Shown here: positions 7,279 to 24,485 of the stretch, piece by piece | Layout: each line of letters begins with the position of its first letter | Numbering within the stretch: position 1 is the first letter of the stretch | From: Sphingomonas sp. | Lineage (GTDB): Bacteria; Pseudomonadota; Alphaproteobacteria; Sphingomonadales; Sphingomonadaceae | Reading direction: 5' to 3' | DNA length: 39,335 nucleotides | Assembly (NCBI GenBank): GCA_025980335.1 | Contig: JAICXO010000007.1 | Location: forward strand, 1 to 39,335 | Notes under the pieces: model-generated | Told to the model about the DNA's origin: nothing | Database searches by the model: none | The model's input: only the letters and a program-made list of their open reading frames with translations | Translations under genes and position numbers: made by a program

Positions 7279-8940
7279 ATGACCGACAGCCAACGCGACA
7301 ACAGCCGCCACATCCGGGCCCGCCGGGGAAGCGAGATCAAGGCGAAGCACTGGACCACCGAAGCCGCGGTCCGGATGCTGATGAACAATCTCGACGACGA
7401 GGTTGCCGAGGACCCGCAGAGCCTCGTCGTCTATGGCGGCATCGGCCGCGCCGCGCGCAACTGGGCCTGCTTCGACAAGATCGTCGAGACCATTGAGCGG
7501 CTGGGGGAAGACCAGACCTTGCTCGTTCAATCGGGCAAGCCCGTCGGCGTGTTCCGCACGCACAAGGATGCCCCGCGCGTGCTCATCGCTAACTCCAATC
7601 TGGTCCCCAAATGGGCGAGCTGGGAAGTGTTCAACGAGCTCGATCGCAAGGGGCTCATGATGTACGGCCAGATGACGGCCGGCAGCTGGATCTACATCGG
7701 CACGCAGGGCATCGTTCAAGGGACGTTCGAAACCTTCGCCGAGATGGGCCGGCAGCATTATGGCGGCGACTTGCGTGGCCGCTGGATCCTGACCGCGGGC
7801 CTCGGCGGGATGGGCGGCGCTCAGCCGCTGGCCGCGGTCATGGCGGGAGCTCACTGCGTCGCAATCGAGGTCCAGGAAAGCCGGATCGAGAAACGGCTCC
7901 AAACGCGCTATGTCGACCGGCGCGCTGGCACCATCGACGAGGCGCTGGAGATCATCCGCGCCGCCTCCGAGCCGACCAGCGTCGGCCTGCTCGGCAACGC
8001 GGCGGAGATCATTCCGGAAATGCTGAGGCGCGGCATCCGGCCCGATGCGCTCACCGATCAGACCTCAGCGCACGATCCGGCGAACGGCTATTGTCCGGCC
8101 GGATGGAACGTCGCCAAATGGCAGGAGATGCGCGAGCGCGACCCGACTGCCGTCGCCGAGGCAGCGAAACTGTCAATCGCACAGCACGTCGAAGCAATGC
8201 TCGCCTACAAGGCGATAGGCGTGCCGACCTTCGATTACGGTAACAACATCCGGCAGGAAGCCAAGGACATGGGCGTGACCCACGCGTTCGACGTCCCCGG
8301 CTTCGTCCCCGCCTATGTGCGGCCGCTCTTCTGCCGGGGCATCGGCCCGTTCCGATGGGTGGCGCTGAGCGGCGATCCCGAGGACATCTACAAGACAGAC
8401 GCCAAGGTGAAGGAGCTGATCCCCGACGACCCGCACCTTCACCGCTGGCTCGACATGGCGCGCGAGCGGATTGCCTTCCAGGGGCTCCCCGCGCGCATCT
8501 GCTGGGTCGGGCTCGGCCAGCGCGACAAGCTCGGGCTCGCCTTCAACGACATGGTCCGCAGCGGCGAGATCTCGGCGCCGATCGTCATCGGCCGCGACCA
8601 TCTCGACAGCGGCAGCGTCGCCTCGCCCAACCGCGAGACCGAGAGCATGAAGGACGGCAGCGACGCGGTCAGCGATTGGCCGCTGCTCAATGCGCTGCTC
8701 AACACCGCCAGCGGGGCGACTTGGGTGTCGCTGCACCACGGCGGCGGCGTCGGCATGGGCTATTCGCAGCACGCCGGGATGGTCATCGTCGCGGACGGAA
8801 CGGATGATGCGGCGCGGCGACTGGGGCGGGTGCTGTGGAACGATCCCGCGACCGGCGTAATGCGACACGCGGATGCGGGCTACGAGATCGCCGTCGACTG
8901 CGCGCGCGAGCAAGGCCTCGACCTGCCAATGGTCCTCTAA
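7279..8940 (+). CDS. hutU: Urocanate hydratase
   Basis: A 553-residue urocanase, which converts urocanate to 4-imidazolone-5-propanoate with tightly bound NAD as an electrophile. Family hallmarks include [29 protein letters not shown], the glycine-rich [18 protein letters not shown] and the late [15 protein letters not shown]. Length matches the usual ~555 residues. It begins 12 nt after the membrane protein gene and is followed directly by a palindromic repeat. Confidence 0.97.
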
Positions 8941-9010
8941 TCGTCATCCCCGCGAAAGCGGGGACCGGGTTTCTTTTCTTGCTAGGTTCCCGCTTTCGCG
9001 GGAATGACGA
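8941..9010. repeat. Palindromic intergenic repeat (CCCGCGAAAGCGGG type) between hutU and hutH
   Basis: TCGTCAT-CCCCGCGAAAGCGGGG at the left and CCCGCTTTCGCGGG-AATGACGA at the right form a long inverted repeat around a T-rich loop. Each arm is itself a small palindrome. A second copy with a different loop lies at 14479-14553 between imuB and dnaE2. The repeat fills the gap from the hutU stop to the hutH ribosome-binding site and would fold in the mRNA. Confidence 0.85.
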
Positions 9011-9019
9011 AAGAAGGTG

Positions 9020-10984: not shown

Positions 10985-13900
10985 TTAATGAAAGTCGCGG
11001 CTCTTGGGGATGACCTCGGCGTCGCGCGGATGGCGCGCGGCGGGAGCCCGCCAGCTGCCGGCCGCGTCGCCTTGCGAGAGGGTCGAGGGCATGATCTCGT
11101 CGCCCAAGTGCCTGAGCATGGAGCTATGGTCCTCCAGCTGGCGGGCGACGACGTGGGTGACCTCGCTATCGGGGTCGCGCTGGACGATCCCGTGGACGGC
11201 GATCAGCCGGGCGCCCATCACGATCTTGCGCTGGCGCCCGAACACGTCGGGCCAGATGACCAAATTGGCGACTCCGGTCTCGTCCTCGATGGTGATGAAC
11301 ACGACGCCCTTGGCGCTGCCGGGCCGCTGCCGGATCAGCACCAGTCCGGCGATCGACAGGCGCTTGCCGTCCTTGACCGCGTTCAGCCGGTCGGCGGTGA
11401 TGAACTTCCGGGCTGCATAATGCTCACGCAGGAAGCGCATCGGGTGCGCCTTCAGGCTGAGGCGGATGGTCTGATAATCGTTCACGACATGCTCGCCTAG
11501 CGGCATTGCGGGGAGCTGCGCCGGATCGAATTCCGATCCTTCGTCGCGCGCGTCGGCATGAGCGAACAGCGGCAGGTCGGGCGCCTGGCGCAGCGCGCGC
11601 GAATCCCACAGTGCAGCGCGGCGGTCGAGCCCCATCGACCGGAACGCGTCGGCCGCGGCGAGGCGCTGGATGGCGTGGACAGGGACGCCGCCCCGGGTTC
11701 GCAGCTGTTCGACGGAGGCATAGGGCCGGCGCGCGACGAGGCGGTCCGCAGCTTCGCGATGAAGTCCGTCGACCTGGCGGAGCCCGAGGCGGAGGGCCAC
11801 ACTCCCCCTACCGCTTGCGGGAGGGGGTCGGGGGGTGGGTGTGTCGGACAGGCCCACCCCTTCGGCGCTTCGCGCCTCTTCCCCTCCCGCAAGCGGTAGG
11901 GGAGATTCAAGCGTACAATCCCACTCACTCCAGTTCACATCGACCGCGCACACCTCCACGCCATGCTCGCGCGCATCGCGGACGATCTGCGCCGGGGCGT
12001 AGAAACCCATCGGCTGCGAGTTCAGCAGGGCGCAGGCGAAAGCCGCCGGGTAGCGCCACTTGAGCCAGCTCGACACATAGACGAGGTGCGCGAAGCTCGC
12101 GGCGTGGCTTTCCGGGAAGCCGTACTCGCCGAAGCCCTTGATCTGATCGAAGCAGCGCTGCGCAAAGGCCGGATCGTAGCCGCGGCTGACCATTCGCCCG
12201 ACCATCTTGTCTTCCAGCACGGCGATGTCGCCCCTGCTGCGGAACGTCGCCATCGCCTTTCGCAGCTGGTTTGCCTCCTCGGAGCTGAACTGCGCCGCGT
12301 CGAGCGCGATCTTCATCGCCTGCTCTTGGAAGATCGGCACGCCGAGGGTCCGGCCGAGGATGCGCTCGAGCTCGTCGGACGGCCCGTGCGCCGGGTCGGG
12401 GCAGGGGAAGGTCACCGGCTCCTTGCCGCTGCGCCGCTTCAAATAAGGATGGACCATGTCGCCCTGGATCGGCCCCGGCCGGACGATCGCCACCTCGATC
12501 ACCAGATCGTAGAAGCAGCGCGGCTTCAGCCTCGGCAGCATGTTCATCTGCGCCCGGCTCTCGACCTGGAACACGCCGAGCGAATCCCCGCGGCAGAGCA
12601 TGTCGTAGACCTCGGGCACCTCCTGCGGGACGGTCGCCAGTTCGAAGCGTTCGCCATGATGCTGTTCGACCAGGTCGAAGCATTTGCGGATGCAGGTCAG
12701 CATGCCGAGCGCGAGCACGTCGATCTTGAGGATGCCGAGCTCGTCGATGTCGTCCTTGTCCCATTCGATGAACGTGCGGTCGTCCATTGCGCCGTTGCCG
12801 ATCGGCACCGTCTCGGTCAGCGGCCGTTCGGTGAGGATGAAGCCGCCGACATGCTGCGACAGGTGGCGCGGCATGCCGATCAGCTGCTCGGCGAGCTTCA
12901 TCGTGCGCCGGAGCAGCGGGTCGGTGAGGTCGAGTCCGGCGTCCTTGGCGCGCTCTTCCTCCAGCTCGGGGTCCATGCTGCCCCAGATGGTCGAAGCAAG
13001 CGCGCCGCAAATGTCCTCGGACAGGCCCATGACCTTGCCGACTTCGCGGATCGCAGAGCGCGGGCGGTAATGGATCACGGTCGCGGCGATCCCGGCGCGG
13101 TCGCGGCCGTATTTCTCGTAAATATGCTGGATCACCTCTTCGCGCCGCTCGTGCTCGAAATCGACATCGATGTCGGGCGGTTCGCGCCGTTCCTCGGAGA
13201 TGAAGCGCTCGAACAAGAGCTCACTCGTCGCAGGGTCCACCGCGGTGATGCCGAGGCAATAGCAGACCGCGCTGTTCGCCGCGCTCCCACGCCCCTGGCA
13301 CAGGATCGGCGGGTCGAGCGAGCGGGCAAAGGCGACGATGTCGTGGACGGTCAGGAAGTAGCGGGCGAAATCGAGCTTATCGATTAGCGGCAGCTCGTAA
13401 TGGAGCTGTTTCAGCACCTTGCCGGGAATGCCGTCGGGCCAGCACCGTTCCGCGCCCTCCCACGTGAGCTGCTCGAGGTACTGCTGCGGGGTCCGGCCTT
13501 CCGGCACCGTCTCGCGCGGATATTCGTAACGCAGCTCGTCGAGGCTGAAATGAAGCGAATCCGCGAACTCGCGAGTCGCCGAAATCGCGTGCGGCCAGCG
13601 CGAGAACAGGCGGATCATCTCTTCGGGGCGTTTCAGGTGGCGTTCGGCATTGGGGTTCAGCAAATAGCCGGCTGTGGCGATCGTCGCTTTCTCGCGGATG
13701 CAGGTGATCACGTCCTGCAGCGGCCGGCGGTCGGGCGCGTGATAATGGACGTCGTTGGTGGCGAGGATGGTGCAATCGTGCTTGCGGGCGATGCGGTCGA
13801 GCCGCTCGATCCGCGCCGAGTCATTGCCGCGATAAAGCCAGCTCGCCGCGACATGGCGGAGTGACGCCAAGGCCTCGCGAAGCCGGGGCAATTCCCGTTC

Positions 13901-14476
13901 GAAATCATCGAGATCCTCTTGCGGCCAGGCGATGAAGGCGATGCCGTCGCTGTTCGTCGCGACGTCAGTTAGGCTGAGCTCGCATTCGCCTTTCTCGGCG
14001 CGCATCTTGCCGAGGCTGAGGAGGCGCGACAGCCGTCCGTAACCCTCGCGATCGATCGGGTAGGCGAGCAGGCTCACTCCCCTCCCGCTCGCGGGAGGGG
14101 AAGAGGCGCGAAGCGCCGAAGGGGTGGGCATGTCAGTGGTAAGCTCGCACGACAGACCCACCCCCCTGCCCCCACCCGCAAGCGGGAGGGGGAGAAGATC
14201 GAGCCGGCAGCCGATCAGCGGTCTCAGTCCCGCGCCCGTGCAGGCGCTGTGCATGCGGACCACGCCGGCGAGCGTGTTGCGATCGGCGATTCCGAGGGCG
14301 TCATAACCAAGGCCTAGCGCCGTCAGCGTCAGCTCGATCGCGTCCGACGCTCCCCGCAGGAAGGAAAAGGGCGAGGCCACCCCGAGTTCGACATATGGGG
14401 ATGGCTCGACCGGAGGAGGCGGCAAACCCTCGCTCCGCACCAGCTTCAAACGTGAGAAGGCGGATTTCTCAGGCAT
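10985..14476 (-). CDS. dnaE2: Error-prone DNA polymerase DnaE2
   Basis: A C-family polymerase of 1163 residues that, with ImuA and ImuB, carries out SOS mutagenesis and lesion bypass. The N-terminal PHP region starts VELGVASPFSFLRGASD and the catalytic Asp motif PDIDVDF is at about 434-440. Helix-hairpin-helix and OB parts follow (FRSMGLDRRAALWD; GLVLIRQRPGSAKGVVFITI). The protein is longer than usual (~1,085) because two palindromic repeats lie in frame, encoding residues ~94-134 and ~857-892, both at variable loops. Without them the length is normal. It is the last gene of the LexA-controlled unit; a palindromic repeat separates it from imuB. Confidence 0.95.
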   Translation of the reverse strand: MPEKSAFSRLKLVRSEGLPPPPVEPSPYVELGVASPFSFLRGASDAIELTLTALGLGYDALGIADRNTLAGVVRMHSACTGAGLRPLIGCRLDLLPLPLAGGGRGVGLSCELTTDMPTPSALRASSPPASGRGVSLLAYPIDREGYGRLSRLLSLGKMRAEKGECELSLTDVATNSDGIAFIAWPQEDLDDFERELPRLREALASLRHVAASWLYRGNDSARIERLDRIARKHDCTILATNDVHYHAPDRRPLQDVITCIREKATIATAGYLLNPNAERHLKRPEEMIRLFSRWPHAISATREFADSLHFSLDELRYEYPRETVPEGRTPQQYLEQLTWEGAERCWPDGIPGKVLKQLHYELPLIDKLDFARYFLTVHDIVAFARSLDPPILCQGRGSAANSAVCYCLGITAVDPATSELLFERFISEERREPPDIDVDFEHERREEVIQHIYEKYGRDRAGIAATVIHYRPRSAIREVGKVMGLSEDICGALASTIWGSMDPELEEERAKDAGLDLTDPLLRRTMKLAEQLIGMPRHLSQHVGGFILTERPLTETVPIGNGAMDDRTFIEWDKDDIDELGILKIDVLALGMLTCIRKCFDLVEQHHGERFELATVPQEVPEVYDMLCRGDSLGVFQVESRAQMNMLPRLKPRCFYDLVIEVAIVRPGPIQGDMVHPYLKRRSGKEPVTFPCPDPAHGPSDELERILGRTLGVPIFQEQAMKIALDAAQFSSEEANQLRKAMATFRSRGDIAVLEDKMVGRMVSRGYDPAFAQRCFDQIKGFGEYGFPESHAASFAHLVYVSSWLKWRYPAAFACALLNSQPMGFYAPAQIVRDAREHGVEVCAVDVNWSEWDCTLESPLPLAGGEEARSAEGVGLSDTPTPRPPPASGRGSVALRLGLRQVDGLHREAADRLVARRPYASVEQLRTRGGVPVHAIQRLAAADAFRSMGLDRRAALWDSRALRQAPDLPLFAHADARDEGSEFDPAQLPAMPLGEHVVNDYQTIRLSLKAHPMRFLREHYAARKFITADRLNAVKDGKRLSIAGLVLIRQRPGSAKGVVFITIEDETGVANLVIWPDVFGRQRKIVMGARLIAVHGIVQRDPDSEVTHVVARQLEDHSSMLRHLGDEIMPSTLSQGDAAGSWRAPAARHPRDAEVIPKSRDFH
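11800..11906. repeat. Palindromic element inside dnaE2 (element A)
   Basis: Inverted arms CCCCCTACCGCTTGCGGG and CCCGCAAGCGGTAGGGG bound a ~107-bp element whose centre includes GCGCTTCGCGCC. Read in the dnaE2 frame it encodes LPLAGGEEARSAEGVGL and PPPASGRG (residues ~857-892). It shares its core with element B at 14073-14197 but lies in the opposite orientation. It sits between VNWSEWDCTL and ALRLGLRQVDGL, two blocks that are close together in other DnaE2 proteins. Confidence 0.88.
14073..14197. repeat. Palindromic element inside dnaE2 (element B)
   Basis: A ~125-bp element with arms CCCCTCCCGCTCGCGGGAGGGG and CCCACCCGCAAGCGGGAGGGGG (each also a hairpin) and the GAGGCGCGAAGCGCCGAAGG core seen in element A. 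In the dnaE2 frame it encodes LPLPLAGGGRGVGL, then PTPSALRASSPPASGRG (residues ~94-134), between GCRLDL and LLAYPIDREG of the PHP region. Confidence 0.88.
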
Positions 14477-14478
14477 GT

Positions 14479-14553
14479 TTCGTCATTCCCGCGAAAGCGG
14501 GAATCCCGCTGTTTTTGAAGGAAGCGGGACCCCCGCTTTCGCGGGGGCGACGA
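14479..14553. repeat. Palindromic intergenic repeat between imuB and dnaE2
   Basis: CGTCATTCCCGCGAAAGCGGGA and CCCCGCTTTCGCGGGGGCGACG form an inverted repeat of the same family as the one at 8941-9010. It occupies nearly the whole gap between the imuB stop and the dnaE2 ATG, so it would fold in the mRNA just upstream of dnaE2 translation. Confidence 0.85.
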
Positions 14554-14566
14554 TGTAAGATCGTCG

Positions 14567-16282
14567 TCACCCGAACAGCCCATGGATGAACCAGGCGGGC
14601 AGCCCGCCGCGTCCGTCGCCGATCAGGCCTTCGCGGTAGATCCAGTAGCGGCGGCCGTCGGCGTCCTCTACGCGGTAATAATCGCGCAGCCGAGCCGACG
14701 AGGGCTGGCGCCACCATTCGGGCGCGATCCGCTCCGGTCCCTCGACGCGGGCGATGTCGTGCACGGCGCGGCGCCAGACGAAGCGGCGCGGCATGCCTTC
14801 CGGAGTCGCGTAGATGACATCGATCGCTTCCGCGCGGTCGAGCAGGCGCTGGGGGCGCCTTTCCCCCTCCCTGCAAGGGAGGGGATTGAGGGGTGGGTTG
14901 CGACTGAAGCGGCTCGATGCCGCTGAAGGAGCTTCCAAACGGGCATTGAGCCCGTTCGGAAGCACCCACCCCCGGCCCCTCCCTTGCAGGGAGGGGGAAT
15001 GAATTGCCGCCACCCATCCGCTCGCCCGCTCTGGAAGATGACTTTCAAACGCCGCCGGGCGCCGCACGGCCCTCGGGCCGAGCTTCACCGTCAGCCGGTC
15101 CACCAGCCGCGCCAGCTCCCGCTCGCTTGACGGCTCCTCGACCAGGCTTTCCTGCGCGGCCCCGAGATCCTCGGTCCATTCGGCGGTCAGCGCAAAGGCG
15201 TCGAAGCCGAATTCCGGGTCCAGCGCCGCCGCCCCCGTCTCCATGACTCCGGTGAGGAGGCGATGAAGATGCTTTGGCTCGCGGCTCGGGATTGCGGTTG
15301 CAACCGATGCAACACCGACGCTGCCATCGACCCGATAGCCGGCGAGCGACAGCCGGCGCGCGCCGAGCCGCCGCTGCTCGAGCTCGCGCACCAGCATCGG
15401 GATCAGCCGCTCGAGCGCTTGGGCTCCCGCTTCGGGATGGGTCGCGGGTTCCTCCAGCTTCAGCAGCGCGCGCGGCGGCGGGTTGGCGGGCGCGGCGGTC
15501 AGCGGCTCGGGCTTGCGGCCGAGCGCCCGGTCGAGCGCGTCGACGACATCCTCGGCCCCGCGAAACCGCCGTGCCAGCGCCAGCCGCGGAACGCCGATCA
15601 GCGCGCCGATGGTCTTGAGGCCAAGCCGTTCGAGCGTTCGCACGGTGTCCGGGTCGAGGCGCAGCGCCGAGACGGGCAGGGGCGAGAGCTGATCAATCAA
15701 ATCCCTCTCCCATCGGGAGAGGGTGCCGACCCCGGCCTTGAGCCGGGGGAGGCGGGTGAGGTCGACCTCACCTTTCCGCAGCCTGCGGCTGCTCCCTCCC
15801 TCTCCCAAGGGAGAGGGGCCGAACCGCGCCAGCGCCCAGGCTGCAGCGGCGGTCGGGGCAATTGCAACACGAATGCTGAAGCCAAGCCGCGTAAAAGACC
15901 TGTGCACGTCCTCAACCAGCCCGCGCTCGCCGCCGAACAGGTGCGCGACTCCGCTCGCATCGAGCCGCAGCCCGTCGGCACCATCCACCTCGACCAGCGG
16001 CGACCAGCGGCCGGCCCATTTGGCGAACCGCTCGACCAGCGCCGCATCGCCTTCGGGATCGGCCGGCACCGCGACCAGCGCCGGATCGAGCGCCCGGGCA
16101 TCGGTCAGGCGCGCTCCGGACCTCGCCCCCCGCTCGGCGGCGGCTTTGGTGACGGCGTGGATGAGGAGGCCGTGCGTGCCCTCGACGGTGAGCACGACCG
16201 GCGCGTCAGGCGTATAGCCGGCGCTTTTTGCCCAGCGCTCGATCGCCAGCTGCGGCAACCAGATGGAAAGTATCCGCCTCAT
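14567..16282 (-). CDS. imuB: Y-family polymerase-like mutagenesis protein ImuB
   Basis: A 571-residue Y-family polymerase homologue that acts as the hub linking ImuA, DnaE2 and the beta clamp in SOS mutagenesis. It starts MRRILSIWLPQLAIERW, then has the ALARFG and LSPLPVSALRL blocks and GALIGVPRLALARRF (HhH region), and ends with PRRFVWRR and DYYRVEDADGRRYWIYREG. ImuB proteins usually lack polymerase catalytic acids. It is longer than usual (~500) because two palindromic repeats are in frame (residues ~155-195 and ~428-475). ATG 16282 lies inside imuA (77-nt overlap), so translation is coupled. Confidence 0.93.
   Translation of the reverse strand: MRRILSIWLPQLAIERWAKSAGYTPDAPVVLTVEGTHGLLIHAVTKAAAERGARSGARLTDARALDPALVAVPADPEGDAALVERFAKWAGRWSPLVEVDGADGLRLDASGVAHLFGGERGLVEDVHRSFTRLGFSIRVAIAPTAAAAWALARFGPSPLGEGGSSRRLRKGEVDLTRLPRLKAGVGTLSRWERDLIDQLSPLPVSALRLDPDTVRTLERLGLKTIGALIGVPRLALARRFRGAEDVVDALDRALGRKPEPLTAAPANPPPRALLKLEEPATHPEAGAQALERLIPMLVRELEQRRLGARRLSLAGYRVDGSVGVASVATAIPSREPKHLHRLLTGVMETGAAALDPEFGFDAFALTAEWTEDLGAAQESLVEEPSSERELARLVDRLTVKLGPRAVRRPAAFESHLPERASGWVAAIHSPSLQGRGRGWVLPNGLNARLEAPSAASSRFSRNPPLNPLPCREGERRPQRLLDRAEAIDVIYATPEGMPRRFVWRRAVHDIARVEGPERIAPEWWRQPSSARLRDYYRVEDADGRRYWIYREGLIGDGRGGLPAWFIHGLFG
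14858..15000. repeat. Palindromic element inside imuB (element C)
   Basis: Outer arms CCCCCTCCCTGCAAGGGAGGGG and CCCCTCCCTTGCAGGGAGGGGG bound a ~143-bp element with an inner stem GCTTCC-AAACGGGC / GCCCGTT-CGGAAGC. In the imuB frame it encodes SPSLQGRGRGWVLPNG and later NPPLNPLPCREGE (residues ~428-475), between ESHLPERA and RLLDRAEAIDV. This is a different arm sequence from elements A and B. Confidence 0.87.
15699..15819. repeat. Palindromic element inside imuB (element D)
   Basis: Outer arms CCCTCTCCCATCGGGAGAGGG and CCCTCTCCCAAGGGAGAGGGG enclose inner palindromes CCCCGGCCTTGAGCCGGGG and GTGAGGTCGACCTCAC. About 121 bp; in the imuB frame it encodes SPLGEGGSSRRLRKGEVDL and AGVGTLSRWERDL (residues ~155-195), between ALARFG and DQLSPLPVSALRL. 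Confidence 0.87.
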
Positions 16283-16910
16283 GAGCGACCACCCAGCGTC
16301 CGGGAGGCAATCCCCGCGCCCGGAACAGCTCGGCATCCCATGCCGGCGCTTCCGGCGCTCGCGGGTCGAGATCGTTGAGGAGCGAGGGTGCGCTCGCGAT
16401 CCGCCAGCGCATGCGCGCGCCGCTGAGGTTCGCCGTGCCGCCGAGCCGGACCAGCCAGCACGGCGTTCCGCTGCGCTCCGACGCGACCGCCAGCCGCCGG
16501 GTCGCGGTGAAGTCGAGCGCGCGCGGGTCGCCCCAAAGCTCGCCGATGACGGCGGAGAGACAGGAGCATCTTACCCCCTCCTCCATCGCCCACAGCGCGT
16601 CGCGGGCGTCGCGCGCCTCGACATGGATGAGGTCGTGGCTTGGAAAGCCCGGCGGATGGACTCGCCCGCCTTCCAGGATCGCCATCCGGTCCTGAACCCA
16701 CAGCAAAGGCTTGTCGCCGCCCACCTGCGCCAGCAGGAACGCGGCCCAGCCGCCGTCGCGCGGGTGCGCGGCGAACACTTCGGAGAGCGTCGCGCTGGAC
16801 GGAACGGGCAAGCGCCATCGTCCGCCCAGCTCCCTCGCGAGCTGAACTTTTCCAAGCGCACGGCTTGCGCCGTCGCCGACCAGTGAAAGGCCTGCAACCA
16901 CACGACTCAC
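16206..16910 (-). CDS. imuA: ImuA, RecA/SulA-like SOS mutagenesis accessory protein
   Basis: A 234-residue protein of the ImuA family, which is RecA-like and works with ImuB and DnaE2. Family traits are GGWAAFLLAQVGGDKPLLWVQD near the middle of the N-terminal half, GLPSHDL-like FPSHDLIHVEARDARDALWAMEEG, and LVRLGG-A plus RMRWRIASAPS towards the end. No canonical Walker A is seen. The frame is closed 15 nt upstream, leaving GTG 16910 or GTG 16901 as start. A LexA box lies 10 nt upstream. The 3' end overlaps imuB by 77 nt. Confidence 0.88.
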   Translation of the reverse strand: MSRVVAGLSLVGDGASRALGKVQLARELGGRWRLPVPSSATLSEVFAAHPRDGGWAAFLLAQVGGDKPLLWVQDRMAILEGGRVHPPGFPSHDLIHVEARDARDALWAMEEGVRCSCLSAVIGELWGDPRALDFTATRRLAVASERSGTPCWLVRLGGTANLSGARMRWRIASAPSLLNDLDPRAPEAPAWDAELFRARGLPPGRWVVAHEADTFHLVAAAGDRALGKKRRLYA

Positions 16911-19883: not shown

Positions 19884-20456
19884 ATGCGTAAGTTTGTTGT
19901 TCTGGCCGCCGGTGCGGCGGCGTTGGCGTCGGCCTCAATGGCGAATGCGGGAATCGTGACTACCTCGAGCGGGTTTACGAGCCTCACCGAAGTAGACACC
20001 CCGAGCGTGATCACCATTTCATTCACGCAAAATCCGATCACTGGCAACTTCACTGACGTGTTGGACCTCACCAATCCTGCCGCCGGAATTTATTCCATCG
20101 GTATTCAGACCAGCACGCCTGGCGTTACCTATGGGACGGGAACACTCAAGGCCTGGGATGGAATTGGCTACAATATTCTCGTGGGCACGCTGACGACTGG
20201 CAGCACCATCTGTTGCGGCGCCAACAGCGCGATTGGACTGGCGCCGCAGTATTTCGCCGCGGGCAACTACCAGTTGACGTGGAACGGGACCTTCAGTGCC
20301 TCTACCGGCTATACCGAGGGCACTGACGGCGGCACCGTGACGATCACCAGTGCCGTTCCTGAGCCGGCCACCTGGGGACTGATGCTCCTGGGCTTCGGCG
20401 GGATCGGCATGGCGATGCGTCGCCGCCGGCGTCCGCTGCTCGCGCAAGTCGCGTAA
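19884..20456 (+). CDS. PEP-CTERM exosortase-substrate protein 1
   Basis: A 190-residue secreted protein. A signal peptide (residues 1-22, ending SMANA) leads into a beta-rich, Thr/Ser/Gly-rich domain with the segment NFTDVLDLTNPAAG. The only cysteines are the adjacent C110-C111 in STICCGANSAIGLAPQ. The C-terminus has the PEP-CTERM signal: VPEPATW with PEP at 159-161, a transmembrane stretch LMLLGFGGIGMAM and RRRRR. Such tails are cut and processed by exosortase (EpsH/XrtA type) for surface delivery; no exosortase is in the window. AGGGAG at 19872-19877 is the ribosome-binding site. It is a full-length paralogue of the gene at 23913, with which it shares length and tail. Confidence 0.92.
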   Translation: MRKFVVLAAGAAALASASMANAGIVTTSSGFTSLTEVDTPSVITISFTQNPITGNFTDVLDLTNPAAGIYSIGIQTSTPGVTYGTGTLKAWDGIGYNILVGTLTTGSTICCGANSAIGLAPQYFAAGNYQLTWNGTFSASTGYTEGTDGGTVTITSAVPEPATWGLMLLGFGGIGMAMRRRRRPLLAQVA

Positions 20457-23883: not shown

Positions 23884-23912
23884 CGCTGCACCGAAAGATG
23901 TGGAGGTCGCAA

Positions 23913-24485
23913 ATGCGTAAGACTATTCTTACGGCTGTGGGGGCGGTTGCGCTCGCCACAGCCTCAATGGCTAGTGCCGGTGTCGTTACCGGCAACACCG
24001 GCCTTCAGAACGTCACCGAGGTGGATACGGCGAGTCTGATCACGATCGCGTTCGAACAGAATCAACTTGCAGCGAACCAGTCGTTCACCGGCGTTCTCGA
24101 TCTGACAAATCCGAGTAACGGCACTTATTCCGTGAACATTGGCACCAGCACTCCGGGCGTGACGTTCACGTCGGGCACGCTGGCGCTGTGGAACGCAATG
24201 ACGTCGAGCTTCAACACCGTCGCGACGCTCAGTCTCGGCAGCACCATTTGCTGCGGCGCCAACAGCAGCATCGGACTCGCCCCCCAACTGTTCACAGCCG
24301 GAACCTATCGGCTGACATTCAACGGGACGAGCACCGTGGCAGGGGCGGACAGTGGCACCGTTACGATCGCAGCCGCGGGTGCAGTTCCCGAGCCGGCGAC
24401 CTGGGCGATGATGCTTCTGGGCTTTGGCGGGATCGGCATGGCGATGCGTCGCCGCCGCAAGCCGGTCTTGGCGCAAGTCGCTTAG
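23913..24485 (+). CDS. PEP-CTERM exosortase-substrate protein 2
   Basis: A 190-residue paralogue of the protein at 19884, aligned almost end to end. A signal peptide ends at SMASA (residue ~22), a Thr/Ser/Asn-rich beta domain contains SFTGVLDLTNPSNG and STICCGANSSIGLAPQ with the only cysteines C113-C114, and the C-terminal signal is VPEPATWAMM with PEP at 159-161, then LLGFGGIGMAM and RRRRK, ending LAQVA. The ribosome-binding site GGAGG at 23902-23906 fixes the ATG at 23913 rather than the upstream ATG 23898. A terminator follows. Confidence 0.92.
   Translation: MRKTILTAVGAVALATASMASAGVVTGNTGLQNVTEVDTASLITIAFEQNQLAANQSFTGVLDLTNPSNGTYSVNIGTSTPGVTFTSGTLALWNAMTSSFNTVATLSLGSTICCGANSSIGLAPQLFTAGTYRLTFNGTSTVAGADSGTVTIAAAGAVPEPATWAMMLLGFGGIGMAMRRRRKPVLAQVA

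Follow-up and report, generated by a model that had tools for sequence, protein, structure and literature searches.

The gene dnaE2, which encodes an error-prone DNA polymerase of 1163 residues, lies on the minus strand at positions 10985-14476 of a 39,335-nucleotide stretch of Sphingomonas sp. DNA (contig JAICXO010000007.1 of assembly GCA_025980335.1; this whole stretch is hereafter called the window) and contains two in-frame palindromic elements, A and B, that belong to one repeat family (P1). Comparison with related genomes shows that the same DnaE2 loop has been repeatedly occupied by at least four repeat families (P1 to P4) across one genus. We consider it highly probable that these are non-autonomous palindromic repeats, which insert widely and survive inside genes only where the reading frame and the protein fold allow. 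The original prediction, which was made from the sequence of the window, described the two elements; it did not mention that the same loops carry different families elsewhere, nor the palindromic element in the imuB-like gene next door.

In the draft genome G000 (2.37 Mb in 151 contigs, 83% complete, ~5% contamination), the window forms contig C62; this genome is most likely a metagenome bin because it is fragmented and contains duplicated genes. The bin includes a second, split dnaE2 (C150, 3-1538, and C151, 12811-14709; ~79-80% identical) and a second recF (C140, 1060-2097; 78% identical), which probably come from a co-binned related species or are paralogues. The named relatives closest in DnaE2, with 73-78% identity, are two Sphingomonas bins and Sphingomonas sediminicola; Sphingomicrobium lutaoense is more distant (62%). 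Host genes were named by NCBIfam, and the DnaE2 of the window matches NF004225 with 1409 bits (cut-off 939).

Two palindromic elements in dnaE2

Element A (103 nt, 11802-11904, minus strand) encodes the insert peptide SPLPLAGGEEARSAEGVGLSDTPTPRPPPASGRG at a position referred to as site A, and element B (118 nt, 14077-14194, minus strand), which has the opposite orientation to A, encodes LPLPLAGGGRGVGLSCELTTDMPTPSALRASSPPASGRG at site B. As had been predicted, both are open in the reading frame of dnaE2. The pair of elements and their opposed orientations are borne out by two inverted pairings, one between 11847-11904 and 14077-14134 (58 nt, 95%) and one between 11802-11861 and 14135-14194 (60 nt, 80%), and the outer bounds first given for them (11800-11906 and 14073-14197) are corrected here to slightly narrower ones. 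Their 22-nt terminal arms, matched at 22/22 positions in A and 20/22 in B, constitute terminal inverted repeats as found in miniature inverted-repeat transposable elements. Both elements start with CTCCCC and finish with GGGGAG, and neither shows the terminal CGTC, TGTC, or CCTC tag, the 8-9 bp stem, and the 4-5 nt loop that define repetitive extragenic palindromes (REPs) of the CGTC type. After dinucleotide shuffling of dnaE2 (100 times), arms had 17 matches at most, and the mean of the best was 2.4. The RNA of element A folds with -80.4 kcal/mol (z -9.4) and that of element B with -88.5 kcal/mol (z -7.6). The elements had also been described as readable in both directions, but four open frames out of six are nothing beyond what GC-rich sequence yields: the mean number of open frames after dinucleotide shuffling is 3.1 for A and 3.6 for B, and four are reached in 172/500 and 283/500 shuffles, respectively.

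Over the same alignment intervals, site A spans 50 residues in the window versus 16 in a relative (G030), and site B 55 versus 19. Three relatives in which neither insert is present (G030, G026, and G033) have DnaE2 proteins of 1091-1094 residues, and the two inserts therefore explain nearly all of the excess length, close to the original estimate (1163 versus ~1,085). In the predicted structure (AlphaFold; mean predicted local distance difference test score, pLDDT, of 73; predicted template modelling score of 0.63), residues 862-886 of insert A have a pLDDT below 50 and lie between the strands 855-857 and 894-896, and residues 100-130 of insert B, also below 50, lie between the strands 90-94 and 135-140. 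Both inserts are thus modelled as disordered loops that protrude from beta-hairpin turns, which agrees with the initial placement of the inserts in loops of DnaE2.

Empty and filled sites across the genus

In an alignment of DnaE2 with other sphingomonads, near relatives have empty sites at both A and B. An empty site A reads LE-GG-ALRL or close to it (G030, G033, G026, G028), and an empty site B reads RLDL-TDAP-SLLAYP or close to it (G005, G033, and others), where the window has RLDL, the insert, and SLLAYP; site B is also empty in G030. Two genomes (G027, G035) gave no DnaE2-level match, and G010, whose dnaE2 runs in several frames, was counted in the rows for site B only. Filled sites and family labels were assigned by eye at both DnaE2 sites and in CarA.

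Recognisable elements occupy site A in 14/35 rows. These are P1 in the window, G020, G016, and G007 (decayed), with half a P1 in G036; P2 in G005 and G003; P3, of the GTTCGTCCTGAGC type, in G032, G015, G031, G021, and G029; P4, which is of the CGTC type, in G009; and, in the bin's second dnaE2, a different palindrome. In another five rows, a long linker without a palindrome occupies the site. At site B, elements are present in 7 of 36 rows, P1-like ones in the window, G020, G031, G021, G011, and G029 and P3 in G028, and three more rows have longer non-palindromic stretches. When the fewest state changes were counted on a quick species tree (MutL plus LeuS, 34 rows, the second dnaE2 of the bin omitted), 12 were required at site A, 4 at site B, 6 in CarA, and 4 in MutL; these counts put decayed and half copies with their family, do not distinguish gain from loss, and may be affected by movement of dnaE2 between species.

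A conserved non-palindromic linker, RSWGSTAL..PDSLPPP, stands at site A in G001, G002, G006, G013, and G034 (loci L176, L177, L182, L190, and L209) and may be an ancient insert that has become native; G015 has a P3 repeat ahead of it.

Among 80 named loci, of which L066-L068 and L077 are likely of the same genus, six have a DnaE2 palindrome with at least 16 matches. Three of them are at site A (Qipengyuania 20/21, Novosphingobium 28/28, and Erythrobacter 36/36), two near residue 191, one near residue 924, and none at site B.

Overall, 37 DnaE2 sequences (35 genes, two of them in pieces) contain 25 inverted repeats with arms of at least 14 nt versus 3.4 in codon shuffles, and 13 of the 25 are at site A or B. 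The replicative polymerase DnaE1 has no comparable palindromes: 20 same-genus genes, one of them partial, contain 4 inverted repeats, as against 2.4 after shuffling, and in none of the four do the matched positions exceed 14. A greater tolerance of SOS polymerases would explain this difference between DnaE2 and DnaE1; essential genes are hit too.

Other host loops and the P1 family

The linker of CarA is filled in 8/22 same-genus rows and in none of 8 other-genus rows, with P1 in G000, G012, G007, and G016 (decayed) and with P3 in G015, G009, G018, and G021. MutL has palindromes in its linker at 4 of 30 loci, which are P1 in G000 and G020 and P4 in G008 and G029. In LeuS, P1 occurs only in G000 among 30 loci, and G015 and G023 have a longer non-palindromic loop at that place. 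RecF, which was sought in 10 genomes and not obtained from G005, carries P1 only in G000 among 10 sequences, and the other recF copy in the bin has an empty site. Judged by sequence, the sites in LeuS and RecF look like turns between strands.

BLAST and pattern searches of G000 for P1 gave 58 matches, from which 12 places were kept (89-164 nt as cut); on C132, C93, and C5 two neighbouring matches were taken as one copy each, and weak, single-arm, or other-family matches were dropped (e.g., on C77, C107, C2, and C63). Nine of the 12 copies are open and in frame inside conserved genes, namely two in DnaE2 and one each in RecF, MutL, LeuS, ValS, CarA, HemW (just behind the probable start), and the 2-oxoacid dehydrogenase E2. 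The other three lie at the rnc/era junction, directly upstream of pheT, and upstream of nadB, the latter two between genes; Era was named by NCBIfam, and rnc and nadB are our own reading. The lengths of the P1 elements are not all multiples of three, and the junctions therefore restore the frame, as a selective filter would leave them.

P1 arms (at most one mismatch) were found in 12 of 23 same-genus genomes and in 0/14 genomes from other genera of the order. The complete, single-contig genome G020 has 30 matches to its own P1 copy, which correspond to 24 loci. Eight of these are internal and in frame (DnaE2, E2, ValS, MutL, IleS, biotin carboxylase, HrpB, and, as a partial copy, GcvPB), two are at gene ends (UvrA and MurC), and 14 are between genes, as judged by open reading frames (ORFs) and codon make-up. 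No gene split by an intergenic copy was seen in the flanking ORFs of 10 of these 14 loci; in eight of the 10 flanking pairs the two members are distinct genes that both have a name, in one pair a single member is named, and in one neither is.

Of the nine internal copies in G000, seven are read in a single frame of the element, but those in G020 are mixed, so that the idea that a preferred frame points to selection on the peptide was dropped. The copy in valS (C132, 44617-44770) encloses a further palindrome, perfect and AT-rich (GTTCGAAAAAT..ATTTTTCGAAC), which gives the impression of one palindrome inserted into another, and the whole is still in frame. At the P1-like element between rnc and era (C5, 11922-12009), the preceding frame stops inside the element and the era frame has no ATG before its G1 motif, for which reasons the element may supply both the stop of rnc and the start of era.

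Proposed course of insertion and survival, and rival explanations

P1 would be a mobile palindromic repeat of ~90-160 bp, built from two terminal palindromes around an inner inverted repeat, and it would insert across these sphingomonad genomes alongside no fewer than three further families of palindromes. Copies that disrupt a needed gene would be lost, while frame-keeping ones in a tolerant turn or linker would persist, their low-complexity peptide, rich in proline, glycine, and alanine, forming a disordered surface loop. Retained inserts are probably translated and would then decay, possibly to be replaced by another family. The inserts would be near neutral, and it would be the tolerance of the protein rather than the choice of DNA target that makes these loops hot.

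Several observations weigh against this account. The RAYT transposase (PF01797) is missing in 22 of 23 same-genus genomes, including G000 (83% complete), and a mobility driven by RAYT is hence unsupported; PF01797 is present in 6/14 other-genus and 5/14 control genomes. At the junctions in DnaE2-B, LeuS, and RecF, no target-site duplication is apparent, the relatives being too divergent for exact joins, and native turn codons are missing beside the insert, which fits no simple transposition. The genic share is also uneven, with 9/12 P1 copies inside genes in G000, 8/24 internal in G020, and only one of the five P2 copies in a gene, and a general preference for genes was given up in view of these numbers. 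Automatic detection yields an inverted repeat in 11 of the 14 rows at site A and in 2 of the 7 at site B. In DnaE2, 12 of the 25 inverted repeats are outside sites A and B (five at residues 712-770 and one upstream of the start), and LeuS has three inverted repeats outside its insert site, one of them with 17/19 matches in G030. Finally, 10 of the 31 inner branches of the species tree have a support below 80.

The strongest rival holds that the hot loops are picked by a preference for certain DNA targets, such as sites with structure or a high GC content, or intermediates of repair within SOS genes, instead of by what the protein tolerates. The join at site A, just after WDCTLE or a similar motif, is nearly identical in many species, the same site carries palindromes in the three named loci from other genera, and REPs have been reported to be common in replication and repair genes (PMC3733652). 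It is nevertheless unlikely, as at least four families share one loop, as the hosts also include LeuS, ValS, IleS, CarA, HemW, and GcvPB, and as both DnaE2 sites are turns between strands in the predicted structure.

A further-reaching reading, which we regard as improbable, would turn certain beta-turns and linkers of sphingomonad core proteins into standing landing sites where unrelated palindromic families insert, decay, and get replaced, so that the linkers are largely dead repeats; insertions would concentrate in the SOS mutasome, with no fewer than four such loops in ImuB and DnaE2, because they benefit its mRNA or protein. It is likewise improbable that the hairpins themselves are selected, with the SOS mutasome tuned either by the added peptides or by very stable folds of the mRNA (-80 to -115 kcal/mol). 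The imuB-dnaE2 coding sequence of G000 does contain three strong hairpins, and relatives have two variable ImuB loops of the same kind, but in many species one site or both are without an insert, a given site can hold different families, several inserts have decayed, and housekeeping genes are hit as well.

Translational bypassing, in which the palindromes are transcribed and skipped by the ribosome, has a precedent in the palindromic elements of mitochondrial genes of the yeast Magnusiomyces capitatus (mentioned in PMC6649704) and would suit very stable hairpins inside a coding sequence. Skipping requires neither frame nor open codons, yet the nine internal copies in G000 and the eight in G020 are open and in frame, and no gene was found split by a frame-breaking copy at the 10 of 14 intergenic loci checked in G020; even with the reservation that internal copies were recognized by an ORF spanning them, bypassing is very improbable. 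An artefact of assembly or binning, which the original prediction had named as its possible undoing and which the draft state of G000 with its contamination and second copies of dnaE2 and recF might suggest, is in effect refuted by the same kind of insert in the same loops of the single-contig genomes G020, G021, and G031.

Relation to known palindromic repeats

Intragenic palindromic repeats, including those in dnaE2, are already known as a phenomenon, because Rickettsia palindromic elements (RPEs) and REPs within DnaE2 have been published (PMC2229807 and PMC3733652, respectively). RPEs are palindromic repeats of 105-146 bp that lie in frame in conserved protein genes and also between genes (PMC2229807). 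The likeness to RPEs that was initially proposed holds at the level of behaviour, as P1 is a multicopy palindrome of about the same size, is inserted in frame, has further copies in core genes, and meets empty sites in relatives. P1 may be said to work like an RPE and not to be one: its hosts are GC-rich sphingomonads instead of Rickettsia, and different families here occupy the same loop in different species.

A paper of 2013 (PMC3733652) described REPs of the CGTC type throughout the alphaproteobacteria, including sphingomonads, with no transposase dedicated to them, and it located REPs within the genes of DnaE2, repair proteins, and tRNA synthetases. P4 of the dnaE2 locus has the tag and looks like this type. 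In contrast to the intragenic REPs of the CGTC and GTAG types, A and B have no terminal CGTC or GTAG tag and are longer, compound palindromes. The paper also names one instance in which roughly the same site, in recB of two Xanthomonas, holds different REPs, whereas shared-site occupation recurs here over many species and several loops. ERIC, YPAL, Correia/NEMIS, and other MITE-like elements of bacteria are short non-autonomous repeats, some of which are read in frame in genes (PMC2229807). P1 shares their short, non-autonomous nature; the target-site duplications listed there for ERIC, YPAL, and Correia/NEMIS were not seen for P1. A spread by plasmids or phages was rejected as well, since element B has no match in plasmid or phage collections.

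No publication on P1, P2, or P3 was found in searches of an open-licence library. As far as can be seen, what is new are the P1 and P2 families and the finding that, within a genus, the same loops are occupied repeatedly by repeats from different families. One loop observed in many species, with empty and filled states, several families, and stages of decay, displays a source of new bacterial protein sequence at work, and the question of whether such inserts are neutral passengers or raw material for protein parts becomes testable through close species and insert removal. A practical caution follows for annotation, as the lengths of DnaE2, ImuB, CarA, and MutL vary within the genus because of repeats.

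The putative imuA-imuB-dnaE2 cassette and neighbouring features

Upstream of dnaE2 lies an imuB-like gene (14567-16336, minus strand) with an IMS domain and DUF6504, whose product is tentatively named ImuB by our own reading, as no ImuB model matched. The cassette begins with an imuA-like gene (16206-16910, minus strand), likewise a tentative label (NF033429, E 5e-10, 39.6 bits against a cut-off of 150). The imuB-like gene carries a P2 element of 139 nt in frame near the C-terminus of the protein (site 2; 14861-14999, minus strand), with 24-nt arms that match by 100% and an RNA fold of -114.7 kcal/mol (z -12.5). Five copies of P2 are present in G000, one of them truncated where its contig ends, and at site 2 of ImuB the element is absent or different in relatives. 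In a comparison of 25 ImuB sequences, from which more distant ones were omitted, strong palindromes occur in this second loop in the window (24/24), G026 (26/26), G032 (23/26), and G036 (20/23), and, for the bin's second copy, in the first loop (23/24). Site 1 of ImuB in the window (15701-15820, residues ~173-212) is a variable loop, SPLGEGGSSRRLRKGE..LSRWERD, that resembles a decayed palindromic repeat, with a terminator-like hairpin at 15703-15723.

Between imuB and dnaE2 lies the P4 element, a REP dimer of the CGTC type (TCGTCATTCCCGCGAAAGCGGG; 14480-14553, without assigned strand), and a second dimer of this type (TCGTCATTCCCGCGAAAGCGGG) lies between genes at 8940-9012. As mentioned above, P4 also occurs inside DnaE2 of G009 and inside MutL of G008 and G029. 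Rfam, at gathering thresholds, found only rRNA and tRNA in the window, and a known structured RNA was therefore discarded as an identity for the elements. Elsewhere in the window, two small ORFs on the same strand (19884-20456 and 23898-24485) share stretches of 106 nt (84%) and 111 nt (70%), which makes a gene duplication likely.

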